Shown piece after piece: positions 5,315-27,640 of a stretch of 41,968 nt of DNA (position 1 is the stretch's first letter; each line of letters begins with the position of its first letter). This DNA comes from Clostridia bacterium (GTDB lineage: Bacteria > Bacillota > DTU025): the NCBI GenBank assembly GCA_034926675.1, contig JAYFQW010000014.1, forward strand, positions 1-41,968, written 5' to 3'. A program made the position numbers and the translations under genes. The notes beneath the pieces are model-generated. The model worked only from the letters and a program-made list of their open reading frames with translations. It had not been told where the DNA came from and searched no databases.

Positions 5315-5343
5315 TTGAAGGATTTGCGGGAACCGTGTAGAAT
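5315..5343 (+). promoter_or_regulatory. sigma-A-type promoter for the barrel-like protein
   Basis: TTGAAG (5315-5320) and TAGAAT (5338-5343) are separated by exactly 17 nt, close to the housekeeping consensus. Transcription would start near 5350 and give a leader of about 290 nt before the ATG at 5639. The element lies just after polA, so the downstream gene is probably transcribed on its own. Confidence 0.7.
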
Positions 5344-5349
5344 TAAGCA

Positions 5350-5638: not shown

Positions 5639-7510
5639 ATGAAGAAGAATCTAATCCTCGTCCTCGCCACCATCGCGTTGGTGGCCATGGCGATCCCGGC
5701 GTCTGCCGCTACCCTCACGCTGAGCGGCAAGTACACCGCCGATTTCACCTATGACTGGACGACCGCCAACACCGAGTTCTGGTCGCCTACTACCCTCGCT
5801 GGTGCGAGCAAGCTCGCTCTGAACCTCACCTTCAAAGAGGGCGACGCAATCACCGCATACCTGCCCCTGACTGTCAAGCCGTTCATCGGCGCGTTCGCTC
5901 CGACAGTTGGCAGCTGGTATTTCGCCTACGACGCGGCTCCAGCCAAGTTCTGGGTGAGCAAGGGCGATTCGTACAACGCCAAGAAGTTCGCATCTCTCGG
6001 CGATCCTCTGGGAATCGCTGCTAAGCTCTATAACGGGCCGACAGTCGTCGGAAACGTCAGCGGATCGCTCTGCGGCGTGGGCTTCAATGTGTACGCAGCA
6101 GATCTGGGTTCGCATACCAACGCTTTGGGGACCTGGAACGATGGCAACGCCGTTCTCAGCAGGTTGACTTACGGACTCCCTGCCGGGTTCACCCTCGGCG
6201 TAGTCAGTACGTTCAACGATGGCGTCCAGCTCACTAGTGGTGATCCCGCCGTTACTGAGCCAATGATGGACGACATCACCGCCGGAGTCGACGTAACCGG
6301 GAAGCTGCCCGTGGTCGGTGGAAACCTGACCCTCGCCGGCGCCGGATTCTGGCGCTTCGATGAGGGCACGAAGAAGTTCGTGGCTGGCGGGGACAATCCG
6401 TACGCAATGCTCGCCAAGGTTGAGGATCTGACCCTTGGCCCCGTGACCGCAAAGCTGTCCTACACCTCGGTTGGTGACGACTTCGTTGCGTTCTTCAAGA
6501 GCACCAGCACCACCACAGTGCCGCTTCTTACGAAGTACGCCGAGGCAGCGGCAGTGGAAGCCGAAGTTAAGGCCACCCTTCCCGTCGTGATCCCCGTGAA
6601 CCTTACCATCGGCGACACCCTGTGGATGAAGTCGAACGGCAACAAGCCAGTATACAATGAGACCACTGGCAAGGTCGAAGTGGATCCGATAAAGGACCTC
6701 AAGGTTACCGTGTCTGGCGCGTACAAGGCTGATCTCGACGATGATGCCGCTACCGACTTGGTCGGGTACAAGGTCCGCGGCGATGTGTCCTACAAGGCAT
6801 TCGGACTTGAGCTCAAGCCGTACGTCTACTACCTGAACAATAGCTATGCAACTCCTGGAGTGCATGGCACAGCGACCAAGCCTGCCGACACCGTGTTCGG
6901 CGCCGACCTCACCGGAAGCCCCATCGGCGGCCTCGAGGTAACGCTTGGCGGCAGCTACGAGCTGGAGCTCAAGGCTGCGGACCTCAAAGCGTGGGGAATC
7001 TACACCACCGAGTTTGCTCCTGCGGTCGTTAAGAGCGCAATCACCAAGGTAGCTGCGTTTGCGTCCTTCAACAAGGTAGACGCGGCTGATGCGACCACCA
7101 ACCTCTACGCCTTCGCAGGCAGCACCGTGGTTGTGAATGACAAGCTCGACGGCAAGGTCGGCCTGCTCACCAAGGATGCGGCTAACAAGATCGTCGCAAG
7201 CGCTACTCTCAACTACAAGATCAGCGATAAGCTAGCTGCGTTCGGAACCTACACCTACCGCCAGAACGCCATCGCTCCCGACGCGGATCACGCCGACGAG
7301 TGGAGGCCTCTCGGCAATAACCACTGGGTGAAGGCTGGAGTCACGGGCACCGTCGGCGCCAGCACCATCAGCGTGGCCTATGGCAAGAACGGCTTGGCCG
7401 ACGCTGATGACGAGGGATTCCACGCAGGCAAGCCCTGGGCTTACCTCCGGAATACCCCTGACTTCATGAACTGGCAGCTCTGGACGGTCAACCTCGCGGT
7501 TCCGTTCTAA
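5639..7510 (+). CDS. secreted beta-barrel/porin-like envelope protein
   Basis: The 623-residue product begins with a textbook signal peptide (MKKNLILVLATIALVAMAIPASA). The mature chain consists of alternating polar/hydrophobic strands rich in Thr, Val, Lys and Asp (for example LTLSGKYTADFTYDW) and ends WQLWTVNLAVPF. A last strand with terminal Phe is the classic beta-signal of outer-membrane barrels recognised by BamA. There is no SLH domain, LPXTG motif or transmembrane helix after the signal. Its own promoter, long leader and strong terminator fit an abundant single-gene transcript. The best reading is a porin-like outer-membrane protein of a diderm Bacillota. An S-layer subunit is the main alternative; the exact family is not recognised. 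Confidence 0.6.
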   Translation: MKKNLILVLATIALVAMAIPASAATLTLSGKYTADFTYDWTTANTEFWSPTTLAGASKLALNLTFKEGDAITAYLPLTVKPFIGAFAPTVGSWYFAYDAAPAKFWVSKGDSYNAKKFASLGDPLGIAAKLYNGPTVVGNVSGSLCGVGFNVYAADLGSHTNALGTWNDGNAVLSRLTYGLPAGFTLGVVSTFNDGVQLTSGDPAVTEPMMDDITAGVDVTGKLPVVGGNLTLAGAGFWRFDEGTKKFVAGGDNPYAMLAKVEDLTLGPVTAKLSYTSVGDDFVAFFKSTSTTTVPLLTKYAEAAAVEAEVKATLPVVIPVNLTIGDTLWMKSNGNKPVYNETTGKVEVDPIKDLKVTVSGAYKADLDDDAATDLVGYKVRGDVSYKAFGLELKPYVYYLNNSYATPGVHGTATKPADTVFGADLTGSPIGGLEVTLGGSYELELKAADLKAWGIYTTEFAPAVVKSAITKVAAFASFNKVDAADATTNLYAFAGSTVVVNDKLDGKVGLLTKDAANKIVASATLNYKISDKLAAFGTYTYRQNAIAPDADHADEWRPLGNNHWVKAGVTGTVGASTISVAYGKNGLADADDEGFHAGKPWAYLRNTPDFMNWQLWTVNLAVPF

Positions 7511-12163: not shown

Positions 12164-12193
12164 TGGTTGTTCATTCGTGAAAGGGGACGTCTC

Positions 12194-13249
12194 ATGGAAA
12201 CGAAAGAGGCTCTAATGCGACTCGCTGACGCCCGTGGGGTAACGGGTTACGAGTCCTGTGCAGGGGATGTGGCAGCATCGCTGTTCGATGGGCTCGTCGA
12301 CGAGATCCGGAGAGATGCACTGGGCAGTGTGATCATGCTGAAAAGGGGCGCGGCCCCGGAACCTTCAGCTCGTCTCATGCTGGCGGCGCATGTGGACGAG
12401 ATCGGCATGATCGTCTCGAGGATCGAGGAACAGGGCTTTCTCAGAGTATGGATGATGGGCGGTGTGGATCGGCGGATCCTTCCCTCCATGGAAGTGACTG
12501 TGCATGGGCGCTCCGACATTCCAGGCGTGATAGGGGCGATTCCGCCACATCTTCAGGATCCATCCGAGAAGGACAAGTCCTGGAAGTGGGAAGAACTAGC
12601 GGTTGACTGTGGGATGCCGGCGGAGAAGCTTCGGGCGATTGTGCGTGTGGGTGATGTGGTGAGCTTCGACCGCCGCTCAGTCGCACTTGCTGGCGACCGG
12701 ATTGCAGGAAAATCCATGGATGACCGCGCGGGAGTCGCAGTCATGTATGAGATGGCCTGTGAGCTTCAAAGGCTGAAGCATGATTGCGATGTGTTCTTCG
12801 TGGCCACAATCCAGGAGGAAGTGGGCTATGGCGGGAGCATCACAAGCACCTACGGCATCGTGCCCGACATCGGAATCGCAATCGATGTTGGCCACGGCGC
12901 CATGCCGGGCCTTCCTGAGGACGACGTGCTTACGTTGGGCGGAGGGCCAGCCATCGGTTTTGGTCCCCACGTTCACCCCAAGGTGTTCGGCAAGCTCAAG
13001 GAGATAGCTGAGAAGCGGGGAATCCCATATCAGCTGGACGCAGACACCTCTGCTCAGGGCACCGACGCCTACGCTATGCAGATGACGCGAGCAGGAGTGG
13101 CGACTGGACTGCTGTCGATTCCCCTGCGCTACATGCATACATCAGTTGAGACACTCTCCCTCGGCGATATCACGAAATCCGGGCAGTTGCTGGCCTACTT
13201 CGCCAGCGCAGTCGACTCCCGGTTCAGGGAGGGATTGACTTGCTTCTAG
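12194..13249 (+). CDS. M42 family metallo-aminopeptidase, copy 1
   Basis: The product has 351 residues, the standard length for M42 (TET/FrvX/YsdC) peptidases, which form large dodecameric shells and release N-terminal residues from short peptides in the cytoplasm. The di-metal site is visible: AAHVDEIGM (His66), SMDDRAG (bridging Asp176), IQEEVG (Glu208/Glu209), IAIDVGHG, and HTSVE (His315). The ATG has AAGGGG 9 nt upstream. It overlaps the next M42 gene by 10 nt. The three copies differ clearly in sequence, so they are probably specialised subunits or enzymes with different residue preferences. Confidence 0.92.
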   Translation: METKEALMRLADARGVTGYESCAGDVAASLFDGLVDEIRRDALGSVIMLKRGAAPEPSARLMLAAHVDEIGMIVSRIEEQGFLRVWMMGGVDRRILPSMEVTVHGRSDIPGVIGAIPPHLQDPSEKDKSWKWEELAVDCGMPAEKLRAIVRVGDVVSFDRRSVALAGDRIAGKSMDDRAGVAVMYEMACELQRLKHDCDVFFVATIQEEVGYGGSITSTYGIVPDIGIAIDVGHGAMPGLPEDDVLTLGGGPAIGFGPHVHPKVFGKLKEIAEKRGIPYQLDADTSAQGTDAYAMQMTRAGVATGLLSIPLRYMHTSVETLSLGDITKSGQLLAYFASAVDSRFREGLTCF

Positions 13250-14286
13250 CCAAGCTCTCAGAGGTTGCTGGCATTTCCGGGCAGGAGGCCGAGGTCAGAG
13301 AGGCGATACGGGCAGAGATCGCGCCATATGTGGATGAGATCACAGTGGACGCCATCGGCAACCTGGTCGCGCTGAAGCGGGGCCGCGGAACTGGCGTTTC
13401 GGGCGGGCGGCGCGTGATGCTCGCTGCTCATATGGATGAGGTTGGCCTCATGGTGAAGGGATTCGAATCCGATGGACTGCTCAGAGTGGCATCGGCAGGC
13501 GGAGTAGACCCGCGAGTGCTCGTGTCGAAGATGGTCTATGTTGGACGGGGTTCGGAGAAGCACCCTGGGGTGATTGGATCCAAGCCTATCCACTTGCTGA
13601 AGAGAGAGGACATGGACCGGGCCACCGACATCAAATCCTTGTATGTCGATATCGGAGCATCCAGCAAGGAAGAGGCGAGCAAGCTCGTGCAGATCGGGGA
13701 CCCCATCTCCTTCGCGACGAAGTGCGAACCCATAGGGGAGGGTTTCATTCGGGGCAAGGCGTTTGACGATCGGGCAGGGTGCTGCGGGGTGATTGAGGCA
13801 CTAAAGGCCCAGCACGACTTCGACTTGTACGGCGCGTTCACCGTTCAGGAGGAAGTTGGTCTGCGAGGCGCTGGTGTGGCGGCATTCAGGATAAAGCCAG
13901 ATCTCGCCCTGGTATTGGAGGGCACGACCGCTCATGATATCCCTAAGGCCCCAGAGCACGCTTTCTCCACGGTCCCCGGGAAGGGTCCGGCGATAGTCCA
14001 CAGAGACGCCTCCTGGATTGGCACAAGGTCCGTTATTGACCGCCTTGTCGCGACGGCTCAAGCCGCAGGTGTTCCATACCAGTTCAAGCGCTCCGTTACT
14101 GGCGGTACTGATGCGGGGAGAATCGGCCTCACTGAGGCAGGGATACCTGCGGCGGTGATGTCAGTGCCATGCAGGTTCATTCACTCGCCGGTCTCGGTGA
14201 TGAGCATCTCCGATTTTGAGAACTATGTGAAACTCGCCGGGCTGTTCCTCGATAGTCTAGACGAAGGGGGTCTTCCGCTGTCATGA
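13240..14286 (+). CDS. M42 family metallo-aminopeptidase, copy 2
   Basis: This 348-residue product belongs to the same family. Its metal and catalytic motifs are AAHMDEVGL (His64), AFDDRAG, VQEEVGLRG and IHSPVS near the C-terminus. It starts with TTG at 13240, preceded by GGGAGGGA at a normal distance, within the last codons of copy 1. Overlap on both sides (10 nt upstream, 4 nt downstream) indicates translational coupling. Unlike copies 1 and 3, the metal-ligand region after the QEEVG helix reads LVLEGT rather than IAIDV. The acidic ligand is thus Glu instead of Asp, a known variation among M42 subgroups. Confidence 0.92.
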   Translation: MLLAKLSEVAGISGQEAEVREAIRAEIAPYVDEITVDAIGNLVALKRGRGTGVSGGRRVMLAAHMDEVGLMVKGFESDGLLRVASAGGVDPRVLVSKMVYVGRGSEKHPGVIGSKPIHLLKREDMDRATDIKSLYVDIGASSKEEASKLVQIGDPISFATKCEPIGEGFIRGKAFDDRAGCCGVIEALKAQHDFDLYGAFTVQEEVGLRGAGVAAFRIKPDLALVLEGTTAHDIPKAPEHAFSTVPGKGPAIVHRDASWIGTRSVIDRLVATAQAAGVPYQFKRSVTGGTDAGRIGLTEAGIPAAVMSVPCRFIHSPVSVMSISDFENYVKLAGLFLDSLDEGGLPLS

Positions 14287-15311
14287 AGGATCTCATCAAG
14301 AAACTCACTGAGGCATACGGCCCGTCCGGGTCGGAGAGCCAGATAATGGCGACCATCAAGGCCGAGGTCGAGCAGTATGTCGACGATATTCGCCTTGATG
14401 CGCTCGGCAGCCTGATCTGCCGAGTTGACCCCAAGTTGCCCGCGCCTGGGGTGGCGCCCAAGAGGATAATGGTGGATGCGCATATGGACGAGATCGGGGT
14501 GGTGGCGTCCTACATAGATGACAAGGGTTTCATCAGGTTCTCCCCAGTCGGTGGGCTCTCACCTTGGGTGCTGATGGGGCAGAGAGTCCGTTTCGAAAAC
14601 GGCGTTGTGGGGGTTTTTGGCACTGAGCGGCTCGAGGACATCAAAGAGCTCAAAATCGAGAAGATGTTCATCGACATCGGCGCTCGGGACCGCGCAGAGG
14701 CGGAGCATAAGGTCCGCATCGGGGACGCGGCCTGCATTCTTCGGGAGTTCGCTGACCTTGGCAGCCGCGTGATTGCCAAGGCAATGGACGACAGGGTTGC
14801 GTGTGCCGTAGTGATCGAGGCTCTTAAGAGAGCGCGCCCCGCCGCGGCCGCGGTGTACTACGTGTTCGCGGTTCAGGAGGAGGTGGGCCTGCGCGGGGCG
14901 AGGGCTGCGGCTTACGGGATCAACCCGCACGTGGGCATAGCAGTTGACGTGACCATATGGGGCGACACTCCCGAGAGCGCTCCATTCTCGGTATGTCTTG
15001 GACGAGGAGTGGCGATCAAGGCGAAGGACTCCAGTGTGATTGCCCACCCCAAGGTGAAGAACCTCATGATCGACGTGGCGGAGAAGAATGGCATCCCATA
15101 CCAGATGGAAGTGCTTGAGCGCGGAGGGACTGACGCCGGCGCCATCCACCTGACCCGGGAAGGAGTCCCATCGGGAACCATCTCCATTCCCTGCAGGTAC
15201 GTGCATACTCCGTGTGAGATGGTTGACATGGGCGATGTTGAGGCAAGCGTCAAGCTGCTTGCTGGTGTTGTGGAGGAGTTGGCATCTCCAGCCGGCGGTG
15301 GTATACTCTAA
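14283..15311 (+). CDS. M42 family metallo-aminopeptidase, copy 3
   Basis: This 342-residue product has motifs DAHMDEIGV (His67), AMDDRVA (an unusual Val in place of the Ala of DDRAG), VQEEVGLRG, IAVDVT and VHTPCE. It starts with ATG overlapping the previous stop as ATGA (14283-14286). The last part of the gene contains a good promoter for the SCIFF gene downstream. The proximity of three aminopeptidases to a ribosomally made peptide system is notable, but a role in trimming that peptide is only a guess; general peptide recycling is the default view. Confidence 0.92.
   Translation: MKDLIKKLTEAYGPSGSESQIMATIKAEVEQYVDDIRLDALGSLICRVDPKLPAPGVAPKRIMVDAHMDEIGVVASYIDDKGFIRFSPVGGLSPWVLMGQRVRFENGVVGVFGTERLEDIKELKIEKMFIDIGARDRAEAEHKVRIGDAACILREFADLGSRVIAKAMDDRVACAVVIEALKRARPAAAAVYYVFAVQEEVGLRGARAAAYGINPHVGIAVDVTIWGDTPESAPFSVCLGRGVAIKAKDSSVIAHPKVKNLMIDVAEKNGIPYQMEVLERGGTDAGAIHLTREGVPSGTISIPCRYVHTPCEMVDMGDVEASVKLLAGVVEELASPAGGGIL
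15279..15307 (+). promoter_or_regulatory. promoter for the SCIFF operon
   Basis: TTGGCA (15279-15284) and TATACT (15302-15307) are 17 nt apart, both one or two changes from consensus. The element sits in the last codons of the third M42 gene, so the SCIFF precursor can be transcribed independently of the peptidases. Start of transcription would be near 15314, giving a leader of about 27 nt that includes the ribosome site. Confidence 0.7.
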
Positions 15312-15340: not shown

Positions 15341-15496
15341 GTGGATAAGAAGAACGAGAAAAAGCATGTGAAAACTGTCATAGCCTCTAACCTTAAGGCC
15401 ACCGCGGCCTCAGGTGGGTGCCGGGAGTGCCAGACCTCCTGCCAGTCCGCCTGCAAGACCTCCTGCACCCTCGGAAATCAGGCGTGCAGGAAATAG
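15341..15496 (+). CDS. scfA: SCIFF ranthipeptide precursor (six cysteines in forty-five)
   Basis: This 51-residue peptide begins with GTG at 15341 behind CCGGAGGAATT. The leader (MDKKNEKKHVKTVIASNLKA) is followed by a core with exactly six cysteines at 27, 30, 34, 38, 42 and 49, including CQTSCQSACKTSC, which is the diagnostic SCIFF signature. The family is a near-universal marker of Clostridia. In the characterised member from C. thermocellum the maturase links a Cys to a Thr five residues on, through a thioether at the Thr alpha carbon; Cys38 and Thr43 are the equivalent positions here. The biological role is still debated, with signalling suggested. Its stop lies inside the start of the maturase gene. 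Confidence 0.95.
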   Translation: MDKKNEKKHVKTVIASNLKATAASGGCRECQTSCQSACKTSCTLGNQACRK

Positions 15497-16908
15497 CGAA
15501 CGGCCTCGAGCTTCAGCGAGGGCGTCCGACCCGAGCCGGCGTCAGCCGCAACTGGCGACGGTTCGGTGTGCCGGGCGCCCGTTTCCTTCTCGACGTCCAG
15601 TCTGGCAGCTTGCATTGCATAGATGAGGCGGCGTGGGACGTCATCGGACAGCTCGACGAGGCTGTGCCCCGCGGGGCAATCGCTCACATCGGAGCGGATC
15701 AAATTGCCGAGGTCGCGCATGACCTCGACATGCTGATCGAGGAAGGCACGCTATCCTACCCGGACGACCCAGACACCATGCCCAATACTGGGCAGACCCT
15801 CGGCCCTGGCGTCGTGAAAGCGATGTGTCTCCACGTTGCCCACGACTGCGACATGCGTTGCGGATACTGCTTCGCCGGAACCGGAGGCTTCGGCGGTGGG
15901 CGATCGCTGATGCCCGCCGAGGTGGGCTGCGCCGCGCTGGACCTTCTGTTCAAGCTCAGCGGCGGCATTCGCCATCTGGATGTTGACTTCTTCGGAGGCG
16001 AACCGCTCCTCAATATGGAGGCAGTCCGGACCATCGTAAAGCACGGCCGCAGGCTGGAGGCGGCCTCTGGGAAAGTGTTGAAGTTCACCCTGACGACCAA
16101 CTGCCTCGGGCTCACCCCCGATATCGGGGGGTTCCTGAACGATAACAACATCGCGGCCGTGCTATCAATCGATGGCAGGCCTGCGGTGCATGATGCGGTG
16201 CGCAGAACTGAGCATGGAGGCCCCACCCACGAGCGGATAATGGCAAACGCCCTGCAGTTCGTTCAAACACGGCCAGATGGGGAGTACTACGTGAGGGGCA
16301 CGTATACAAGGCGGAACCTGGACTTCGTGGATGATGTGCTGTACTTGGCCGACATGGGTTTCGATAGCATATCCTTCGAACCAGTTGTGTCGCCTCCCGA
16401 GTCGCCATACTCAATTCGAGAGCAGGACCTTCCACAGGTGTACGCATCCTACGACAGGCTCGTGGATGAGATGATCGCCCGCAGGCGACAGGGACGGGGT
16501 TTCCGCTTCTTCCACTTCGACCTGAACCTTGCGAACGGCCCCTGCCTGGCCAAGAGGTTGCTAGGATGTGGGGCAGGGCGTGAGTATGTGGCCGTGACCC
16601 CTGCCGGCGAGCTGTACCCGTGCCATCAGTTCGTGGGGCGGGATGGCTTCATTATGGGGGATGTTCGCTCGGGGATCGCACGACCGGAAATCGGAAGCGA
16701 ATTCGGCCGCGCGCACATCTACGCCAAGCCCGTGTGCAGGGGCTGCTGGGCGAGATACATGTGCTCTGGCGGTTGCCACGCCAACGCTCATCAGATGAAC
16801 GGAACCATTGCTGAACCATATTCCATCGGATGCAGAATCACGCGGAAACGACTTGAGTCAGCTCTTACCCTTGCCGCGGCAGAGGCTACAGGCGATTCGC
16901 GAGCGTGA
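15484..16908 (+). CDS. scfB: SCIFF radical SAM/SPASM maturase
   Basis: This enzyme forms thioether cross-links in the SCIFF peptide. The product has 474 residues. An N-terminal peptide-recognition (RRE-like) part includes ARFLLDVQSGSLHCIDEAAW (about 34-53). The radical SAM motif CDMRCGYC (Cys122, 126, 129) and the SAM-binding FFGGEPLL follow. The C-terminal SPASM domain carries the Cys ligands for auxiliary clusters: GPCLAK, LLGCGAG, YPCHQF, CRGCWARYMCSGGC (about 418-432) and IGCRI. The GTG at 15484 is chosen because it is the only plausible start after the SCIFF core, with a 13-nt overlap; its ribosome site is weak, so coupling to SCIFF translation is likely. Confidence 0.93.
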   Translation: MQEIANGLELQRGRPTRAGVSRNWRRFGVPGARFLLDVQSGSLHCIDEAAWDVIGQLDEAVPRGAIAHIGADQIAEVAHDLDMLIEEGTLSYPDDPDTMPNTGQTLGPGVVKAMCLHVAHDCDMRCGYCFAGTGGFGGGRSLMPAEVGCAALDLLFKLSGGIRHLDVDFFGGEPLLNMEAVRTIVKHGRRLEAASGKVLKFTLTTNCLGLTPDIGGFLNDNNIAAVLSIDGRPAVHDAVRRTEHGGPTHERIMANALQFVQTRPDGEYYVRGTYTRRNLDFVDDVLYLADMGFDSISFEPVVSPPESPYSIREQDLPQVYASYDRLVDEMIARRRQGRGFRFFHFDLNLANGPCLAKRLLGCGAGREYVAVTPAGELYPCHQFVGRDGFIMGDVRSGIARPEIGSEFGRAHIYAKPVCRGCWARYMCSGGCHANAHQMNGTIAEPYSIGCRITRKRLESALTLAAAEATGDSRA

Positions 16909-16988
16909 CATATTGGCGCCGGCCCGGGATGCTATCATGGCCTAGGTGTGAGAATCGGGGCCTAAGCATAATCGGGGGGTGCGCGCTC

Positions 16989-17621
16989 GTGATGGATATT
17001 GGGGCAACTTGCGATGGCGAACTGATCCGCATCGTTCAGGCCACCGGGTCAGGTGACGCGTTCGAGCGGCTTCTTTCCAACTACTCCGGAGCGCTCTATA
17101 GGTGGACGGCGCCCTACAGGGGTTATGTCCACGACCGAGAAGAGCTGATGCAGGAGGCGCGGCTCGGGTTCCTTGCGGCTGTGCGTGGGTATGATCCGAC
17201 TAAGTCCAGCTTCTACTCTTTCGCACAGCTCTGTGTTGTACGAAGGCTGATGAGTGCGGCCAGATCGAGTGTACGCATGAAGGCCGCGGTTCGTGGATTC
17301 ACAATCCCCCTTCGCTACGGGGCTGACGGACAGGATGACAACAGAGATCCCATAGAGACGATCGCTGACACGACGGCGATCGATCCGGCCGAGTCCGTGG
17401 AGCGGCTTGAGGAGTGCCGAAGAATCTGGTCAGTAGCGAAGACAGCGCTTACCCCGCTTGAACTCGAAGCCATGTCGTGGATCGCCAATGGCCTATCGTA
17501 TCGCGAGGCCGCTGCTGCAATCGGCGTCACCGCCAAGGGGGTTGACAACGCTGTTGCAAGGGCGCGAAGGAAACTCCGCGAACTCCTTTCATTGGAACTC
17601 AAGAGGGATGGGATTGCCTGA
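16989..17621 (+). CDS. SigH-like sigma-70 family factor
   Basis: The product has about 210 residues with region 2 (LLSNYSGALYRWTAPYRGYVHDREELMQEA..., with GFLAAVRGYDPTKSSFYSFA for -10 melting and recognition) and region 4 with a helix-turn-helix (LSYREAAAAIGVTAKGVDNAVARARRKL) for -35 recognition. Length and layout match the SigH/SigF-type factors of Bacillota; SigH switches on early sporulation and stationary-phase genes. The promoter set here cannot be read from sequence. GTG 16989 and ATG 16992 are adjacent in-frame starts, behind a G-rich stretch ending near 16980. An extended -10 (TGCTATCAT, to 16938) may drive it. It lies directly after scfB, which raises the possibility of shared timing. 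Confidence 0.78.
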   Translation: MMDIGATCDGELIRIVQATGSGDAFERLLSNYSGALYRWTAPYRGYVHDREELMQEARLGFLAAVRGYDPTKSSFYSFAQLCVVRRLMSAARSSVRMKAAVRGFTIPLRYGADGQDDNRDPIETIADTTAIDPAESVERLEECRRIWSVAKTALTPLELEAMSWIANGLSYREAAAAIGVTAKGVDNAVARARRKLRELLSLELKRDGIA

Positions 17622-17650: not shown

Positions 17651-20044
17651 ATGGGAGTAGCGCGCGATGCTCGTATTGGCGCAATTGTCGACAAACTGCG
17701 GTCGGCAGGCGGGAAAATCGACTTGGAGCAGGCTGCTTCGGAACACGGCGTCTGCTGCCGTACTATCGCACGTGATATCGCAAGGCTGCGGACGATGGGG
17801 TACGATATTGAGATCCGCGATGGGGTGATGCATTCCCGCGGTGGGCTTATGCCGCAGCTGCCGTCCTCTGTGATAGCAATGAGGCGCATGGCGGTCCTCG
17901 CATACCTTGTGGCCGGGCCTGCTGCGTTCACGGAGATTGTGGACCGTCTCTCCGATCCCATCCGGGGCTTTTCTGCGGATGAGCGGACAGTAAGGCGAGA
18001 CATGGACTACCTCTGCACGCAGGGCTTTGTGGAAGAGTGCGACAGTCGTGAAGAATCAGGATACCGTCTGAGCGGGGCCTTCATGCCCCGTTTTTCGCTC
18101 ACTTGTGATGAACTACTGTCGGTGCTCCATGCAGTGGAGGCAGCTCCGGAGGCGGTGGCGGAACCCGCTGCTGTGAGGTCAATCCGAGAGAAACTCTTAG
18201 CGGCAGTGGCGCCATCAGCGAGCCTTGCAAGGCTCGCCTGCCGCAGGCGGTACATGAAAGGCAGGACGGGGCGATTTGACCCTGAGATTCAGAACCTCGT
18301 CGACATGCTCGAGGTGGCCTCGCTCGAAGAGAGAGTGGTCAGGATCACATATCGTTCGCGCGACGTTCGGGGCAGGGCGCCTAACGGAGAGTCCTGCGAT
18401 AGCGGCGGATCCAGCGGAGTAAGGGACGTTGAACCACTAGGGCTTGTGTACTACTGGTTCCACGATGCCTGGTACCTCGTGGCTCAGTGCCGCCGTGCTG
18501 GAGAGATCCGTCATTTCCGCCTGGACCGCATCACCGGAGTGGTGGTGACCAACTCGCACTTCCAGTACCCCGACTCCTTCGATTTGGCGTCGCATGTGTC
18601 AGGGATGTGGGGAGTGTTCTCGGGGAAGTCCACCCGCGTAAGGGTTCGGTTCTTCAACGAGATGAACGTGTTCGCGCGGCTTCAGGCTGAGGCAGGCGAT
18701 AGACCATCGTGCCTTCTCACGCCCTGCGATGACGGCACAACAGAGCTTTCGGATACGGTGGCGGGTCTCTCAGAGTTCCGGACGTGGCTACGGTCGTTCG
18801 GCTCTTCTGCACAGGTGATCGAGCCGAAGGAGTTGGCTCAAGAACTGGTGGACAGCGCCATCGTGATGCGACGCATCTATGCAGCCTCCCCATGCGATCC
18901 AGGCGAGGGCTCGCGCCGCCCTCCGATTGCGCCATCGTCGCTGTCGCCTTCGCCCCCCGCTGTTTCGGCTACTGCTGGAGCTTCCGCTGCTCTGAGAGTC
19001 CCTTCGCGTGCGGAGATGACCGAGGCGATGTACTTGAGGTTGATTCAGATAGTCAACAGGCTTCGCTCCACACCAGAAGGCATGACAGTCACTGAACTGG
19101 CGGATGAGTGTGGGGCCACTCCGGAGATGGTGGCAGCAGATCTTGAACTGCTTCTATCCCACGGCCGCGTTCCACTGGCGTGCAGTGCTGACGATCCAGA
19201 TACTGGCTGCGATGGGGAGCAGAAACCTGAAGACGAGATCTGGATGCTGTCATCGTCGGACTTCTCCTTTCCCATCACCTCGCTCAGCCGCCACGAAACC
19301 AGCACCATCCTCCGAATTCTGGATCGCCTTCCCGCGGGCGCGGACGTGGCGGGTGCGCGTGACAAGGTGGAGGCTGGTCTCACAGCGGTTCATTCATCGG
19401 ACGAAGTCATGCGCGCTATCGGGCGACGGGTGGTCAAAGCGGGGCGAATCATGTATGGTCCGGGGCAGGAGGAACAGAAAGTGGATGCTCTGGGCAAGTA
19501 CGTGGCCGGAAACGCTGCGATAAGAGTTGAATACGTGGGCGCGTCTGGAGCGCAGTCTGAAAGAGACACTTGCGCAGTTGCCTTGGTGTACGACTGGCGA
19601 ACCTGTGCGTGGTACCTCTACGGCTTCAGTGGTTCCGAGCAGTTCAGGCATTTCAAGGTGTCGAGAATCCGTAACTGCCGGCTGTCGTCGATTCGTATCG
19701 CCCCCCCGTCTGACGATGACGTTGATGCGCACGTTAAGAGCTGTTGGGGAGTGGAATGCTCATCGGAACCGGTGGATGTGGCAGTGCGTTTCTCGAACGA
19801 CTTCAACGTAATAAGCCGCATGCGGTCCGACACTGCCGACAGGGCATCAGCCACGTACTTGGAACTTCCTGACGGCTCAGTAATATACCGCGACACCATG
19901 CCAGGATGCAACGAGTTCCGAGCCTGGCTTGCTACGTTCGGTGAATCAGCCGAGGCGCTGGCCCCGGGCGAGCTTAGGGCCAGTATGGCTGCTGGAGTGG
20001 AGAGGGTGCTCGCCAGGTACGGCATCGATATCGCTGGCGTCTGA
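17651..20044 (+). CDS. fused double HTH-WYL transcription regulator
   Basis: The 797-residue product contains two complete regulator modules in tandem. Module 1 has an HTH at about 1-55 (EHGVCCRTIARDIARL), a second winged helix at about 75-135 (ADERTVRRDMDYL) and a WYL domain centred on FHDAWYLVAQC (about 268-278), with RHFRLDRI after it and a WCX-type tail. After a Pro/Ser/Ala linker (about 415-450), module 2 repeats HTH (about 456-510, MTVTELADECGATPEMVAADLELL), WYL (YDWRTCAWYLYGF, about 646-658, and RHFKVSRI) and a WCX tail. The layout is like the fused PafBC regulators that control DNA-damage genes in actinobacteria and the WYL regulators that sit next to defence loci. The ligand is unknown; nucleic acid or nucleotide sensing is typical of the fold. 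It is followed by the SbcD/YhaN-like pair. Confidence 0.85.
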   Translation: MGVARDARIGAIVDKLRSAGGKIDLEQAASEHGVCCRTIARDIARLRTMGYDIEIRDGVMHSRGGLMPQLPSSVIAMRRMAVLAYLVAGPAAFTEIVDRLSDPIRGFSADERTVRRDMDYLCTQGFVEECDSREESGYRLSGAFMPRFSLTCDELLSVLHAVEAAPEAVAEPAAVRSIREKLLAAVAPSASLARLACRRRYMKGRTGRFDPEIQNLVDMLEVASLEERVVRITYRSRDVRGRAPNGESCDSGGSSGVRDVEPLGLVYYWFHDAWYLVAQCRRAGEIRHFRLDRITGVVVTNSHFQYPDSFDLASHVSGMWGVFSGKSTRVRVRFFNEMNVFARLQAEAGDRPSCLLTPCDDGTTELSDTVAGLSEFRTWLRSFGSSAQVIEPKELAQELVDSAIVMRRIYAASPCDPGEGSRRPPIAPSSLSPSPPAVSATAGASAALRVPSRAEMTEAMYLRLIQIVNRLRSTPEGMTVTELADECGATPEMVAADLELLLSHGRVPLACSADDPDTGCDGEQKPEDEIWMLSSSDFSFPITSLSRHETSTILRILDRLPAGADVAGARDKVEAGLTAVHSSDEVMRAIGRRVVKAGRIMYGPGQEEQKVDALGKYVAGNAAIRVEYVGASGAQSERDTCAVALVYDWRTCAWYLYGFSGSEQFRHFKVSRIRNCRLSSIRIAPPSDDDVDAHVKSCWGVECSSEPVDVAVRFSNDFNVISRMRSDTADRASATYLELPDGSVIYRDTMPGCNEFRAWLATFGESAEALAPGELRASMAAGVERVLARYGIDIAGV

Positions 20045-20212
20045 GGGAGGAATCAGCCGTCAAAGGTAGAATATCGCAGTAGTAGGGCGATGGGCGGCAT
20101 TGATGGCCGCTCATCGTGCGTTATTCGGCAATATCGTCGAATATCGCCAATGGACGAAGCAAATCGGGACGGAACGAGAGACTCGCTCGCCGCCTGGAAT
20201 GGGGGGAATGGC
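20045..20212 (+). promoter_or_regulatory. repeat-bearing control region before the SbcD-like gene
   Basis: The motif AATATCG occurs three times in the same orientation, at 20070-20076, 20130-20136 and 20140-20146. Starts are 60 and 10 bp apart, so the copies fall on nearly the same face of the helix. The last two form an imperfect palindrome with their flanks (GGCAATATCG / GAATATCGCC). The first overlaps a -10-like TAGAAT (20067-20072); the same hexamer occurs before the WYL gene (17624-17629). This may be an operator for the neighbouring WYL regulator, which is an inference from position. Confidence 0.35.
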
Positions 20213-21373
20213 TTGGATCCCATCAGGCTTCTGCATACTGCCGATTTGCATCTGGATCATGTTCTCACCGACTACGGGCGCTCTGCGCGCGCTGTGCGCC
20301 GGGCCGATCTCATCGCGACCTTCAACTTCCTGGTGGATGAGGCCATTCGCTCTGATGTGAAGGTATTGCTCGTGGCAGGAGACCTAATATGCGCGGCGTC
20401 CGCCGCGGAGTCTACTGTACGGACTGTTAGAGAGGGGTTCGCGCGACTTGGACGGGCCTTGGTGCAGGTGGCGGTGGCGCCCGGTGAATCGGAAGAGCAC
20501 GGAGACCTCGCGCTCCTGCGCGAAGCGTGCCGACCGGACAATGTGCATCTATTCATGGGTGAGGAATGGTCCAGGTTCTCCCCAATACAGGGGGTTACAA
20601 TCTGGGGATTGCGCACTGCCAACAGAAACTCAGATATCCCTGTGCTCAGGAGCCTGATAGTGGAGGAATCTGGGCGGCACATTGGACTGATGCATGCCAC
20701 CTACGCCGACACTCCCGGAGAGCCCATATCATCGATCACCCGTGATGACCTGGCTGCTGCCGGTCTTGACTACCTGGCGCTCGGGCATCACCACAACAGG
20801 CTCAACTGCTCTGTAGGACGTGCGCAGTGCTGGTACCCAGGCTCGCCTGCGCACATCGGCTACGAAACCAGGGGAGAAAGGCATTGCCTCATCGTCACCA
20901 TGCGTGACGATGGTGTCCGGGTGAGTCCATTGAAGGTTCCGAGCAGGGCGCAGAGAGTGGTTCACATGGATGTGACCGGCAAGACCCCTGACCAGATGCG
21001 CAAAAGGCTGGAGGAACTTGCGGACCCGGACCTATGCTTGAATCTGGAACTGCAGGGCCGACTTGAGTTTGAGCAGACCGCTTGCCTCGCGTGCCTTGAA
21101 GCCGAGTTCGCCCCCAGGTTCCTTGACCTGAATGTGAACGATGACACTGTGCCGTCCCGATCCGCCAGGCCGTCTGATTCTGTACAAGGTGATGATCTTG
21201 AACAGGCACTCATACGAAGGGCTGCCGGAGTGCTACGGCGCGCCTCGGTGGCCGGACACGACAGGGCTGGGGGGGAGTCTGCTCCCATCGGAGGACGAGT
21301 CCTGTCGCGTGGCCTGAAGCTTTGCCTTCGCGCTTTGAGGGAGGCGCCTGCCAGTGAGAATCGAGAGACTTAA
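20213..21373 (+). CDS. SbcD/YhaO-like phosphoesterase with a degenerate active site
   Basis: The product of about 386 residues has the calcineurin-like fold order of SbcD/Mre11/YhaO: HTADLHLD (8-15), LLVAGDL (about 52-58), a third motif, MHATY (about 160), then GHHH (191-194) with YPGS after it. The third motif, normally GNHD or GNHE, reads PGESEEHGD (about 90-98). The Asn that binds both metals and the His acid are therefore missing at that place. In family enzymes this abolishes or strongly lowers nuclease activity. TTG at 20213 has GGGGGG 6 nt upstream and starts the protein five residues before motif I; ATG 20150 and an upstream start at 20090 are in-frame alternatives. It overlaps the next gene by 20 nt, so the pair is probably a complex. 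Confidence 0.75.
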   Translation: MDPIRLLHTADLHLDHVLTDYGRSARAVRRADLIATFNFLVDEAIRSDVKVLLVAGDLICAASAAESTVRTVREGFARLGRALVQVAVAPGESEEHGDLALLREACRPDNVHLFMGEEWSRFSPIQGVTIWGLRTANRNSDIPVLRSLIVEESGRHIGLMHATYADTPGEPISSITRDDLAAAGLDYLALGHHHNRLNCSVGRAQCWYPGSPAHIGYETRGERHCLIVTMRDDGVRVSPLKVPSRAQRVVHMDVTGKTPDQMRKRLEELADPDLCLNLELQGRLEFEQTACLACLEAEFAPRFLDLNVNDDTVPSRSARPSDSVQGDDLEQALIRRAAGVLRRASVAGHDRAGGESAPIGGRVLSRGLKLCLRALREAPASENRET

Positions 21374-23603
21374 GGTATCTGAACGACGCAGGGGATCAAC
21401 ACACGATATCGAGCTGGCGCCTGATCTCACCATCATCGGATCGGACGATCCAGGGTTTTGCGATGCTCTGACGAATGCAGTGTCGGCCCTGGGCGATAGC
21501 GGATCGGCTGAGGTTGTCGCGCTTGACCCTGAGGATCTCGACTGTGCGACTGCTGGGAATGCCCGGGGAGTGTGCATCGGAAGCGTTGCCCTATCCCAGG
21601 TGCTGCCTGAGGAAGGTCCCAGGCTGGAATCTGCCTTCAGATGCCTGCGGGGAATGGCGAATGAGGGTGGATCGGCGACACGGGAGGCTCTAGATGAATC
21701 GGTCGAAGAGGTCTTCCGTGCCAGGGCGCGCAGGTCGAAGCTGGAGTCCAGGCTATCCTGGATTGTGGAGCGGGCAGCATTTCTGGATTCTCGGATCTCA
21801 GCCATTGATTCCATTCTGAGGGCATCGGCAGAGAGAATGGAGATCGATGGCTACATCGCACGGCTGAAAGCTGAGCGTGATGACTTGCAGATTCGCCTTG
21901 GAGAGGCAAGGTCCGCCAGAAAGGCGGCTGCTGAGGCTGCTTGGAGACTAGCAGGCCTGCCAGGCGCCGGCGCAGGGTTTGACGGTGCGAGCGCAAACGA
22001 GGTGCAATCACTCGACAGCACGTTGAAAGACCTTGAGCAGCAAGCGGTGAGAGCAGAGGCGGAGCAGTCCACCATCTCCAGCCGATTCGTGCGTCTTCGC
22101 GGGGAGCTGTCGTCGATCGAACGAAGCCTGGCCCGAGCTGCCGACGATAGACTCGAACGAGAGGTGCGCTCTCTTTCCGCCGTATGTGAGGAAAAGGAGA
22201 AGGGACTGGCGCGCATATCGGAGGATCTCGAGCGAATGAGGAGGATCCCATCGCGAATCACCATTTCCCGCTGGCTTTCCGTTGGCGGATCCGGCGTAGC
22301 CTTCGTATCGCTGATAGGCCTCCTCGCGTGTGGGACCAAGATGACGTTCCTCCGTTCGTTCCCCGGCGTGCCTGCTCTCCTGATCTCCCTGGCCTTGGGC
22401 ATCCTCGCAGCAGGATACGGCCTGGCAGAGGCGATGGAGCTGGATTCCCGCGGTTGCGCTCAGGCTCGTCTGCAAACTGAGAGGGAGACCCTAGAGCGGC
22501 AACTTGCGTGGAATCGCCAGCAGTTGTCGGCGGCGCTCGGCGGAAAGAGCCTCGAAGACCACATGGCGATCGCCGAGAACAGGCGATTCCTCGAGGCCGG
22601 GCGCGATATCCTCATGGGGGAACTCGAGGAGACCGGTGCGCAGCTGGCGCAGGTGCGGAACGAAGCGGACTTGATCAGGATGAGGACTTGCCGTGTTAAG
22701 GAACGGACCTGGGAACTCGTTCGGGCAGCTGGATTCGGATCCGTGCAGAAGTTCATCGAGGGATACCAGCGGTTTGCTCGAGAGGATGCCCAGTATCGGC
22801 AGGCTGCACGACGACTTGAGGAGGCATTGGCAGGACGGACTGAGGCAGGCGCCGAGCGAGAGGCGGAGTTATCTATCGAAGAGATCGCCGTGTCGGAGGC
22901 TGCTCGCGACTCATTGGCGGATCCCAAGAACGAGGGCAGGTCCCGAGAGCTCTCCGAGGAGTATGCGCTCAAGATGGCTGAGGTGGAGGAGCTCGGGAGG
23001 GAGGCCGCAGCCGATCAGGCTGAGCTGTCTATGATACGTGCTGAGCTTGAATCCACCGACCTATGGGAGCTGGCGTCGGCTGCGGCTGAGATGGCAAGTA
23101 ACGACGCGAGGAGACATGCGGACATGCCTGCCATGGCAATGGCCGAACTGCTCCTTGGAGAGCTCATAGAGGAGCGGGCGAAGTGCGGCGGGGCTGAGGT
23201 GGCGAAGCAGACGGCGGCGCTTGTAGAACTGCTGACCGGAGCGCAGGACCCGCACGTGACTTGGGAGATAGCATGTCCCGTCGGAGACGCGAGTGAAAGG
23301 CATGAGGTCGTGTTCTCTCTAGACGCTGGCCCAGGAGAGGAGCGGAACGCACACATGCCCCAGAGGCGCCCAGAGGAGGCTCTCGCCTTTGCGCTGGCCG
23401 TGCGTGGGCGCGGGTGTAATGGCCAGGTTCCGCTTGCGTTGATATTCACACCCCACTCACATGAGTATGCTGGGTTGCTATTGGCTCTGACACGTTTGGC
23501 CAGCGTCAGGCAGGTGATATGGCTCGCTGGCGTTCTCCCCTGCCAGGCTGCGACAGGCGGACTTGGCCCGGATTCATATGGCGCCACAGTGCGCGTTCTA
23601 TGA
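21354..23603 (+). CDS. YhaN/SbcC-like coiled-coil membrane protein lacking Walker motifs
   Basis: The 749-residue product begins MRIERLKVSERRRGS...IELAPDLTIIGS, in register with the N-terminus of YhaN and other Rad50-like ATPases. Where the P-loop (GPNEAGKST) should be, it reads GSDDPGFCDAL (29-39), without Lys or Ser/Thr. Two long coiled-coil segments (about 105-300 and 365-600) flank two hydrophobic segments (about 305-325 and 337-360), the hairpin membrane anchor typical of YhaN. The C-terminal lobe keeps a helix like RPEEALAFALAVRG, but the Walker B position reads PLALIFTPHSHEY, without the Asp-Glu pair. ATP hydrolysis is therefore unlikely. GTG 21354 has GGGAGG 9 nt upstream and lies inside the SbcD-like gene. 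The role is unknown; a structural, membrane-tethered partner of the upstream protein is the best guess. Confidence 0.7.
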   Translation: MRIERLKVSERRRGSTHDIELAPDLTIIGSDDPGFCDALTNAVSALGDSGSAEVVALDPEDLDCATAGNARGVCIGSVALSQVLPEEGPRLESAFRCLRGMANEGGSATREALDESVEEVFRARARRSKLESRLSWIVERAAFLDSRISAIDSILRASAERMEIDGYIARLKAERDDLQIRLGEARSARKAAAEAAWRLAGLPGAGAGFDGASANEVQSLDSTLKDLEQQAVRAEAEQSTISSRFVRLRGELSSIERSLARAADDRLEREVRSLSAVCEEKEKGLARISEDLERMRRIPSRITISRWLSVGGSGVAFVSLIGLLACGTKMTFLRSFPGVPALLISLALGILAAGYGLAEAMELDSRGCAQARLQTERETLERQLAWNRQQLSAALGGKSLEDHMAIAENRRFLEAGRDILMGELEETGAQLAQVRNEADLIRMRTCRVKERTWELVRAAGFGSVQKFIEGYQRFAREDAQYRQAARRLEEALAGRTEAGAEREAELSIEEIAVSEAARDSLADPKNEGRSRELSEEYALKMAEVEELGREAAADQAELSMIRAELESTDLWELASAAAEMASNDARRHADMPAMAMAELLLGELIEERAKCGGAEVAKQTAALVELLTGAQDPHVTWEIACPVGDASERHEVVFSLDAGPGEERNAHMPQRRPEEALAFALAVRGRGCNGQVPLALIFTPHSHEYAGLLLALTRLASVRQVIWLAGVLPCQAATGGLGPDSYGATVRVL

Positions 23604-23681
23604 CTATTCGCAGGAAATCGGCGTCAGGTGTTGAACTTAACATGAAAGCTTTACCATCACTGGTTTCGGGGAGGGTGGTCA

Positions 23682-24929: not shown

Positions 24930-25010
24930 GCGCGGCCGAGCACCATATTCACAAGACTACAACGGGTTTCGCCCAGAGGCAGCGGCGAACCGCTTTCCGA
25001 GGTGTGGCGC

Positions 25011-26408
25011 ATGCCTGATCTTGTTATCTGCGGAGGAAGTGTAGTCTCATCTGAATCGACTATTGCGGCAGACGTGTACGTGCACGCTGGGCGGGTAGTG
25101 GACGTGATGCCTGTTGATGGCGCACCCCGCGCGCGGGCTGACATGCCATCTGGGGTGTGGGCATCGGTGGATGCCTCGGGGATGCTCGTGCTGCCGGGCA
25201 TCATCGATCCCCACGTCCACTTCGGCCTCAGATCAAGAGGGTCCATTACTGCGGATGACTTCAGTTCTGGAACTGAGGCAGCGGCCGCAGGCGGAGTGAC
25301 GACCGTAATCGACTACGCAGACCATGCCGCCGGCAAGCGCCTGCGGGATTGCGCAATGGCACGGCTCGATGAAGCGGCGGCGCTTGCTAGTGTTGACTTC
25401 TCAGTGCACCAGAATGTGGTGAGGCTCGAGCCGGATACCCTCGAGCAGCTGTGTGAACTGTCCGGCCTGGGAATCGCCAGTGTGAAAGTGTTCACTACCT
25501 ACAAGGACGCCGGGTACATGCTGGATGGCAAGTCCCTTGCAGGCATTCTCGCCGCATCACGGGAAAGCGGCATTCTGGTTACCGTGCATGCGGAAAGCGA
25601 TCCCGTGATCGAGGACGCCGGCCGTGGCCTGATTGCGCAGGGAGATACGTCTGTTCACGCACACGCCAGGTCTCGGCCTGCCGAGGCAGAAGCAGCTGCG
25701 ATCGGTGCGGTCATCGAGGCCGCCGCGTCTGTCGCTGGTCGAGTCTATTTCGTGCACGTCTCGACCGGCGTAGGGATCCAGAGGATCATCGCTGCAAGAG
25801 AACGCGGCCTTGAAGTGCACGCCGAAACCTGCCCGCATTACCTGCTTCTCGATGAGAGCGCCTACGGACGGGAGGACGCGGCGCTTTACATAATGAGCCC
25901 GCCGCTGAGGCGAGGGCAGGATCGCGCGATGCTCTGGGAGGCTATGAGGGCGGGCCGGATCGATACGATTTCCACTGATCACTGCGCCTTTACCCCGGGG
26001 CAGAAGGCCCTGGGCACAAGCTGTTTTGACACGCTGCCCGGCATCCCCGGAGTTCAGACACTCCTTCCTTTGATCTACACATACGGGGTGCGCGCAGGGC
26101 GGCTCAATATCACCGACATGGTGAGAATGATGTGCGAAAACCCCGCCCGGCTCTTCGGGCTGTGGGGGCGGAAGGGGAGCATATCGCCTGGCTTTGACGC
26201 GGATTTCGTCATTCTCGACCCCTCAGGTGGATCCACGCTCTCTGGAGATGAGCTGATTTCGAAGTCGGGATACACGCCTTACGAGGGCATCGAGGTAAGT
26301 GGAGAGATTCGACAGGTGTACCTTCGAGGCGAGATCGTTTTCGAGCGTGGGAGGTTCTGTGGACGCTCTGGGGGCGGACGATACGTGCCTGCTTGGCAGG
26401 GACGATGA
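25011..26408 (+). CDS. dihydropyrimidinase/hydantoinase family amidohydrolase
   Basis: This 465-residue cyclic amidohydrolase opens dihydropyrimidine or hydantoin rings to N-carbamoyl amino acids. Metal ligands are visible: DPHVHFG (His68, His70), the carboxylated lysine in FTTYKDAG (Lys165), HAES, FVHVSTG, and the catalytic Asp in ISTDHCAF. The ATG at 25011 has GAGGTG 6 nt upstream. It is the counterpart of E. coli HyuA/YgeZ, which lies in the same kind of cluster. Here a PreT/PreA dihydropyrimidine dehydrogenase is also present, so dihydrouracil or dihydrothymine is a credible substrate. Its stop overlaps the next start as ATGA. Confidence 0.9.
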   Translation: MPDLVICGGSVVSSESTIAADVYVHAGRVVDVMPVDGAPRARADMPSGVWASVDASGMLVLPGIIDPHVHFGLRSRGSITADDFSSGTEAAAAGGVTTVIDYADHAAGKRLRDCAMARLDEAAALASVDFSVHQNVVRLEPDTLEQLCELSGLGIASVKVFTTYKDAGYMLDGKSLAGILAASRESGILVTVHAESDPVIEDAGRGLIAQGDTSVHAHARSRPAEAEAAAIGAVIEAAASVAGRVYFVHVSTGVGIQRIIAARERGLEVHAETCPHYLLLDESAYGREDAALYIMSPPLRRGQDRAMLWEAMRAGRIDTISTDHCAFTPGQKALGTSCFDTLPGIPGVQTLLPLIYTYGVRAGRLNITDMVRMMCENPARLFGLWGRKGSISPGFDADFVILDPSGGSTLSGDELISKSGYTPYEGIEVSGEIRQVYLRGEIVFERGRFCGRSGGGRYVPAWQGR

Positions 26409-27640
26409 CGGCGCAGGAGAAGGAGGCATTCTACTTGGCACGTGCGATTCAGGATGTTATGAGGCTCGCAATGGAGTACGAGCCGAAGATAGTCCAGTTT
26501 CTGCGGGATCTGATCCGGATACCGTCCACCTCAGGGTGCGAGGGTGCGGCCATGAGGCGGATAGTCGAAGAAATGCAGGCTGTGGGCCTGCCAGATGTGG
26601 AGATAGATGAGATCGGCAATGTGGTGGGGCGGATTGGCGATGGAGATCTCAAAGTGCTGTACGATTCGCATATCGACACGGTGGGAATCGGCGACATAAG
26701 CGCCTGGCCCCATGACCCGTTTGAGGGCAAGTTGGAGAATGGGATCGTGTACGGGAGGGGGGCCTCGGATAACAAGGCAGCCATCGCGTGCATGGTGTAT
26801 GCCGCCAGGATAATGATGGACCTTGATTTAGGCAGCGGCGCCACCCTATACGTTGTGGGAGTGCCTCAGGAAGAGGACTGCGATGGCTGGGCCATCGGGG
26901 AGATGATCTCCAGGGAGTTCATACGGCCCGATCTTGTGGTTCTGGGCGAGTGCACGAATCTGGGAGTGAATCGCGGCCATAGGGGCAGGTGCGAGGTTGC
27001 GGTTGCGACCAGGGGCGTATCCTGCCACGCGAGCGCGCCGGAGCGGGGAGAGAACGCCATCTACAAGATGATTCCAACGATCAAGGGAGTGCAGGCGCTT
27101 GAATCGAAGACTAAAGACGACCCGTTCCTCGGCCGCGGCAGCATTGCGGTTACCCGAATCGAGAGTGTGAGCGGGTCGCTGAACGCACTGCCCGACCTGT
27201 GCAAGGTGTACATCGACAGGCGCATGACCATAGGCGAGACAGCCGGTTCCACCATCGAGGACGTGAGAAAGCACTCCGACCCGTGTGCAGAGGTTTCGCT
27301 CCTCCGCTACACCGAGAAAAGCTGGACCGGATATCAGGCGGATGTGCCGAAGGACTATCCTACCTGGGTGCTTCAGCCGGATCACCCTGCGGTGCTCGCA
27401 GGAGTGGAGGCTGCAAGGCAGGTGCTTGGGAGGGATCCCGTGGTCAGCAAGTGGGTGTTCTCCACCGACGGCGTGTCGATCACTGGCAAGCACGGCATCC
27501 CCACCATAGGATTTGGCCCCGGTGAGGAGAAATACGCTCACACCGTGAACGATCAGGTGCCTGTGGACCATCTGGCAGCGGCGACCGGGTTCTACGCGGT
27601 CTTCCCGGACGTGGCCGCTGCGATCATGGCGAAGCGCTGA
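26405..27640 (+). CDS. ygeY: YgeY-type M20 metallohydrolase
   Basis: The 411-residue product is of the M20 peptidase/deacylase family. Metal-site motifs include YDSHIDTVGIG (His89, Asp91), YGRGASDNKAA, PQEEDCDG (catalytic Glu and metal Glu) and the late STDGVSITG and GFGPGEEKYAH. It resembles E. coli YgeY closely in pattern: GVSCHGSAPERG there corresponds to GVSCHASAPERG here, and SWTG is shared. YgeY belongs to the anaerobic purine-degradation gene set, where it acts on an open-ring or carbamoylated intermediate. The ATG at 26405 makes a 4-nt ATGA overlap with the hydantoinase stop, which decides the start. Confidence 0.88.
   Translation: MTAQEKEAFYLARAIQDVMRLAMEYEPKIVQFLRDLIRIPSTSGCEGAAMRRIVEEMQAVGLPDVEIDEIGNVVGRIGDGDLKVLYDSHIDTVGIGDISAWPHDPFEGKLENGIVYGRGASDNKAAIACMVYAARIMMDLDLGSGATLYVVGVPQEEDCDGWAIGEMISREFIRPDLVVLGECTNLGVNRGHRGRCEVAVATRGVSCHASAPERGENAIYKMIPTIKGVQALESKTKDDPFLGRGSIAVTRIESVSGSLNALPDLCKVYIDRRMTIGETAGSTIEDVRKHSDPCAEVSLLRYTEKSWTGYQADVPKDYPTWVLQPDHPAVLAGVEAARQVLGRDPVVSKWVFSTDGVSITGKHGIPTIGFGPGEEKYAHTVNDQVPVDHLAAATGFYAVFPDVAAAIMAKR

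Follow-up and report, generated by a model that had tools for sequence, protein, structure and literature searches.

YhaO-YhaN (SbcEF; COG0420-COG4717), a bacterial Mre11-Rad50-type pair found in Bacillota, is poorly characterised (PMC6452273), and our search of the open literature yielded no informative paper on the function of YhaN or YhaO. For Mre11 of P. furiosus, His85 is needed for both the exo- and the endonuclease activity, and an H85S substitution abolishes both (PMC8007570). Among WYL regulators, the mycobacterial DNA-damage activator PafBC consists of tandem HTH-WYL-WCX units that are adjacent or fused, the A. aurescens protein being a natural fusion (PMC6789036), and residues R211 and R214 of PafB are required for its binding of ssDNA (PMC11804915). 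DriD of Caulobacter (8tp8) is likewise a WYL-WCX regulator, activated by ssDNA and having an ssDNA-binding WYL domain (PMC12340889).

The 41,968-nt stretch of DNA analysed here (the window) is one contig (C14) of a 3.38-Mb genome present in 90 contigs. The original prediction described three consecutive genes in it, encoding a double-WYL regulator, an SbcD/YhaO-like phosphoesterase (hereafter D) and a membrane-anchored YhaN-like coiled-coil protein (hereafter N); all three open reading frames, and the 20-nt overlap between those of D and N, were recovered (Table 1). The present analysis adds a SigH-like paralogue upstream and a conserved sigma-H-type element before D, and it shows that the WYL pair matches PafBC in architecture. 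The order of D followed by N in overlapping or abutting frames is that of the YhaO-YhaN pairs of Bacillota, and the likeness extends to the Mre11-like fold of D, to the Rad50-like head and membrane-hairpin coiled coil of its partner N, and to sequences nested within the family. What sets the pair apart from YhaO-YhaN is that D lacks motif III while N lacks Walker A, the signature motif and Walker B. With SbcCD and Mre11-Rad50 the pair shares the fold of D and a detectable C-terminal half of the Rad50 ATPase in N; unlike them, it has neither GNHD nor ATPase motifs, possesses a membrane hairpin and scores under all curated SbcD/Mre11 cut-offs.

Table 1. Features of the D-N locus, in window positions
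Feature	Position	Strand	Remarks
SigH-like sigma-70 factor	16905-17621	+	
Fused HTH-WYL-WCX-HTH-WYL-WCX regulator	17651-20044	+	797 aa; Pfam, PafBC fusion match
WYL1 HFRLDR, residues 288-293	18512-18529	+	R290 and R293 match the ssDNA-binding RxxR of PafBC
WYL2 HFKVSR, residues 667-672	19649-19666	+	same site; Lys in the window replaces the first Arg
Sigma-H-type promoter-like element GGAGGAATC-N11-GTAGAATAT	20046-20074	+	between WYL2 and D; conserved in relatives
D, YhaO/SbcD/Mre11-like phosphoesterase with altered motif III	20090-21373 (ORF); probable start 20213	+	427 aa as listed
D motif I HTADLHLD	20234-20257	+	D52 and H54 invariant in 9/9
D altered motif III PGESEE, residues 131-136	20480-20497	+	PGNHD expected
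N, YhaN/Rad50-like coiled-coil protein, membrane-anchored, without ABC ATPase motifs	21354-23603	+	749 aa
Lost Walker A site of N, GSDDPGFCDA, residues 29-38	21438-21467	+	GPNEAGKST expected; next helix still predicted
Two hydrophobic segments of N, residues 308-326 and 333-351	22275-22406	+	hydropathy scan
Lost Walker B site of N, PLALIFTPH, residues 693-701	23430-23456	+	PLILDDPF expected; RQVIW strand after it retained
Second sigma-H-type promoter-like element GCAGGAAAT-N11-GTTGAACTT	23610-23638	+	between N and threonine-synthase-like gene

D matched the Pfam Metallophos family as a calcineurin-type phosphoesterase and also, far under cut-off, the NCBIfam sbcd and Mre11 models. Its predicted structure folds as Mre11 (pLDDT 86), with residues 1-30 of the listed ORF below a pLDDT of 50; the start is probably the TTG at 20213 and not 20090, judging from relatives that begin there. 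The closest solved folds were all Mre11/SbcD, the third PDB match being 3dsd, the P. furiosus Mre11-H85S protein crystallised with branched DNA and manganese, and His85 of that protein is the equivalent of the motif III His missing from D. All nine D proteins carry PG(E/D)(A/S)(E/D)E where the PGNHD of an active nuclease would be expected: the catalytic His is absent and the metal-ligand Asn has become Glu or Asp. The ligands contributed by motifs I, II, IV and V (D52, H54, D98, H202, H233 and H235) are invariant in the same nine proteins, and invariance of these remaining motif and ligand columns would have a probability of about 4e-5 if it were random. Because the motif III Asn is itself a metal ligand, the acidic residue in its place may preserve metal binding. 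To call the motifs of D eroded was hence correct for motif III but too strong overall, as one of the five motifs is touched and the other metal ligands are kept.

N returned no AAA match and nothing specific from Pfam or NCBIfam. Walker A is absent from all nine N proteins, and the signature and Walker B are missing as well from the eight that are full-length (the ninth is partial); the proposal that both partners had lost key motifs at once therefore holds for N as it does for D. Despite these losses the ancestry of N is clear, since a profile of the N family finds the C-terminal half of the Rad50 ATPase (E 9e-8), in which an LVVEASA-type run aligns to LLILDEPTP. The predicted model retains the strand-helix order of an ABC head with moderate confidence (pLDDT 77, pTM 0.36), and a fold search with it placed Rad50 and SMC-type proteins on top, the whole-model TM of 0.17 being low because of the coiled coil. 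The hydrophobic segments interrupt this coiled coil, correspond to model helices 300-327 and 338-395, and are predicted to form a membrane hairpin. An anchor is thus predicted, in keeping with the original proposal; as a mark of repurposing it was rejected, as such segments are widespread in canonical YhaN.

The degenerate pair occurs in nine genomes from six genera and two families of one uncultured Bacillota order: besides the window's own genome, seven belong to the same family (f1) and one to a second family (f2; G008). The order's third family (f3), represented by three genomes, has a canonical YhaO-YhaN pair instead and lacks the WYL pair as well. A scan of one genome per species (~85,000 species) gave, among the matches listed, four records of this clade followed by proteins of ~32% identity with GNHD intact, and among the 30 best loci from 398 genomes of the phylum degenerate D appeared in the same nine genomes only. 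A tree of 47 sequences joined these D proteins in a single clade (100/100) with a long stem; the clade is nested within YhaO proteins whose motifs are intact, as are those of its nearest sisters (in G168 and G068). The dN/dS ratios were 0.12-0.21 for D, 0.11-0.32 for N and 0.11-0.20 for the WYL genes, compared with 0.07-0.10 for neighbouring enzymes. At the level of sequence, the single clade and the low ratios therefore indicate that the pair was altered once and then retained by selection. Recent decay or a sequencing error in one genome was ruled out by these ratios and by the finding that all nine genomes, representing six genera, have open frames and share the losses; with the WYL association conserved in all nine, the locus is a distinct conserved module. 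An origin on a plasmid or phage was also rejected, as searches of plasmid and phage collections gave no close copies (best ~25% identity).

The loss of motif III was considered as a feature unique to this clade and was rejected in part. Other YhaO proteins carry GTHD (Desulfuromonadales), GHAD (Chloroflexota) or GDSD (one Bacillota genome), and their partners keep the ATPase motifs where these are readable. In the Desulfuromonadales loci L068, L069, L070 and L073, a YhaO-like protein with GTHD is accompanied by a partner with intact Walker A, which has the appearance of drift in an otherwise canonical pair.

Pfam assigned two WYL domains, two WCX domains and an N-terminal HTH_11 to the regulator, and HTH_PafC came near threshold in its second half (31.8 vs 32 bits). 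The first half (residues ~1-420) is PafB-like and the second (~455-797) PafC-like, giving the tandem HTH-WYL-WCX arrangement of PafBC; the best solved relative was 6sj9, the A. aurescens fusion (phmmer, E 3.7e-9). The fused double-WYL regulator is real in the window, but the fusion is peculiar to this genome, and the relatives encode WYL1 and WYL2 as separate genes. The Arg residues of the ssDNA-contact loop are conserved, with R-x-D-R in 7/7 aligned WYL1 sequences, and with RVSR or RVDR in WYL2 of the relatives and KVSR in that of the window. Unlike PafBC, the pair is found next to the SigH-like factor and D-N and not at a Pup-proteasome locus, in a genome that has LexA; replacement of LexA, the SOS regulator, by the WYL pair was rejected because LexA is present. 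DriD differs in being a single HTH-WYL unit, and we know of no link between DriD and an MR-like pair. The only other WYL protein found in the window's genome is a second double-WYL protein (L186; G000:C34, 1147-3207, minus strand), which adjoins a gene without a Pfam match.

The SigH-like factor scored 81.7 bits against the NCBIfam SigH family, whose cut-off is 294.8. The canonical SigH of the genome (G000:C26) reached 375 bits, and the SigH-like factor is its paralogue; orthologues of the latter lie directly 5' of WYL1 in 9/9 module genomes, that of the second family included. Between WYL2 and D, a 30-nt element was identified with a motif search score of 221.8 against 126.2 +- 6.6 for shuffled sequences, a score inflated by related rows. 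The element is present in G008, thus in another family, and its spacer is 11 nt in all nine genomes. The element reads roughly GAAGGRAAA-N11-GNNGAANTA and is similar to the sigma-H consensus RnAGGAwWW-N11/12-RnnGAATww, for which the searchable open literature gave us no paper. The second element, 3' of N, is found in four genomes (the window's, G001, G005 and G008). Elsewhere in the window, positions 5317-5345 (+) agree with 15/15 scored positions of a sigma-H-type consensus, ~290 nt 5' of a 623-aa ORF (5639-7510). Six genomes have a similar element ~74-85 nt 5' of their spo0A match, the individual matches not being significant relative to shuffles. A check for Spo0A itself gave scores over cut-off in G012 and in all six genomes covered from f1 and f2, and no match in the two covered from f3. 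Several relatives have terminator-like hairpins, read by eye, in the WYL2-D interval, and these suggest that D-N is a transcription unit of its own. PafBC-type promoters have the motif TTGTCRGTG-N8-TANNNT; a search for it before D gave no convincing site and was uninformative because the window holds 31 loose matches. No known RNA element was found at gathering threshold.

Within the window's family the gene order is SCIFF maturase, SigH-like factor, WYL1, WYL2, D and N. WYL2-D-N is linked in 9/9 genomes and is the sole block kept in all of them when the flanks change, as they do upstream in G008 and downstream in G003 and G004. Of the genomes tested, 9/9 that carry the degenerate pair also have the WYL pair, as against 0/6 of those that lack it, a co-occurrence that represents co-inheritance and not nine independent events because the genomes are related. 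Beside the canonical Bacillota relatives examined, neither a WYL pair nor a SigH-like neighbour was found. In G008 a break falls between WYL1 and WYL2, which lie on different contigs: the end of C2 carries M42 peptidases, SCIFF maturase, SigH-like factor and WYL1, and the interior of C5 carries WYL2-D-N and the threonine-synthase-like gene. Further features of the surroundings include three M42-family aminopeptidase genes in a row (12167-15311, +), in an order kept in relatives; a short ORF with six Cys (15341-15496, +), a SCIFF-type ranthipeptide precursor that overlaps the listed start of the SCIFF maturase ORF (15418-16908; TIGR03974, 522 bits); and, 3' of the threonine-synthase-like gene, dihydropyrimidinase-like and YgeY-like genes (25002-27640, +) that are kept in G008, the latter being a hydrolase of the selenium-metabolism-linked type.

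D-N is real and conserved, and within the YhaO-YhaN family it stands as a separate branch that has a PafBC-like regulator. Since its motifs are gone although selection still acts on it, and its neighbours resemble ssDNA sensors, the pair has probably been repurposed as a membrane-bound complex that binds DNA, instead of serving as a repair nuclease. The fuller account that we favour, with a probability of roughly 0.4, is that the catalytic motifs of a YhaO-YhaN pair disappeared a single time, in an ancestor common to the two families, and that the pair was kept as a non-catalytic, membrane-tethered scaffold for metal and DNA under a sigma-H-type promoter and ssDNA-responsive WYL control. D retains the Mre11 fold and the metal ligands without the catalytic His, and N retains the topology of a Rad50-like head, the coiled coils and the membrane hairpin but would be incapable of the usual binding or hydrolysis of ATP. 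Transcription would start at the sigma-H-type promoter, through the canonical SigH or the SigH-like factor two genes upstream, so that expression would most likely fall at stationary phase or at entry into sporulation, and the PafB/PafC-like pair would probably control the module in response to single-stranded DNA. Its likely role at the membrane would be to hold, or to sense, DNA that is damaged or carries ssDNA, without cutting it. Ancestry, shared losses, selection, linkage, the promoter-like element and the conserved ssDNA-contact arginines were all observed, whereas DNA binding, sigma-H dependence, ssDNA sensing and the physiological role are inferred, as is the DNA-end or nucleotide sensor function first proposed. 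Against this account we counted the YhaO proteins with GTHD, GHAD or GDSD whose partners keep Walker A, the poor fold match of N, the weak matches upstream of spo0A, a sigma-H consensus that the searchable papers did not yield, the contig split in G008 and the presence of LexA.

A further point counted against it is that metallophosphoesterases such as LpxH (GNRD) and YfcE (GNCD) are active without the motif III His, the loss of which is not by itself fatal to the enzyme. This leads to the main rival, a possible although somewhat unlikely one, in which D is still an enzyme with an altered motif III that acts on another substrate (a nucleotide, a lipid diphosphate or a cyclic dinucleotide), with N as its membrane anchor. 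The invariance of the other ligands and an acidic residue in motif III that could coordinate metal are consistent with such an enzyme, as is the far better conservation of D than of N across the clade (48-53% vs 25-38% identity to the window proteins). However, the nearest solved folds are all Mre11/SbcD, Mre11 with H85S is inactive (PMC8007570), and it would be unusual for a Rad50-like partner to be retained as a simple anchor. It is unlikely that the WYL pair and D-N are mere chromosomal neighbours, with the WYL pair and the SigH-like factor serving other genes: much of the surrounding gene order is conserved within the window's family, and in several relatives the hairpins stand between WYL2 and D, yet the block survives changes of its flanks and the co-occurrence noted above is complete. 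Moreover, two Chloroflexota MAGs present an independent association, in which a single HTH-WYL gene is divergent from a GHAD-type YhaO whose partner has an intact Walker A (L111, 7853-10110; L115, 7855 to ~10100).

Quite improbable is a regulatory role in which D and N form mixed complexes with the canonical YhaO-YhaN and so damp or redirect it. The window's genome does encode an intact pair (G000:C72, L060), with GNHD and Walker A, and a second SbcD-like match is present in most relatives; mixed complexes are not obvious, however, because the two D proteins are only 25% identical and other proteins in the tree lie closer to the degenerate D than the canonical copy does. Least expected of the functional alternatives, and very unlikely, is an anti-phage defence module. 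WYL regulators often adjoin defence systems (PMC9122601), and PADLOC returned WYL models along with LmuB/PbeC matches. Set against this are the housekeeping synteny conserved in nine genomes and the lack of close plasmid or phage copies; PADLOC gave no match for D, those for N were weak and covered the coiled coil only, and beyond the WYL models neither D nor N was recognised as part of a known anti-phage system.

A more specific form of the scaffold account, which we regard as speculative and distinctly unlikely, is a DNA-integrity checkpoint at entry into sporulation, where the SigH-like factor and the PafBC-like ssDNA sensor would control a catalytically dead, membrane-anchored Mre11-Rad50-type complex. 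If this were true, the complex, sitting at the membrane, would bind DNA that is broken or single-stranded and would hold back or orient chromosome handling before spore formation.

Because the YhaO-YhaN family is so poorly characterised, a repurposed branch provides an informative contrast. MR-type pairs without nuclease and ATPase motifs, maintained by selection and keeping their metal ligands, would amount to separation-of-function variants that nature has made of a universal repair machine, and would show that the DNA-binding or scaffolding role of the Mre11-Rad50-type machine can be useful alone. The linkage to a PafBC-like regulator would, in addition, join the sensing of ssDNA with an MR-like complex in Bacillota.
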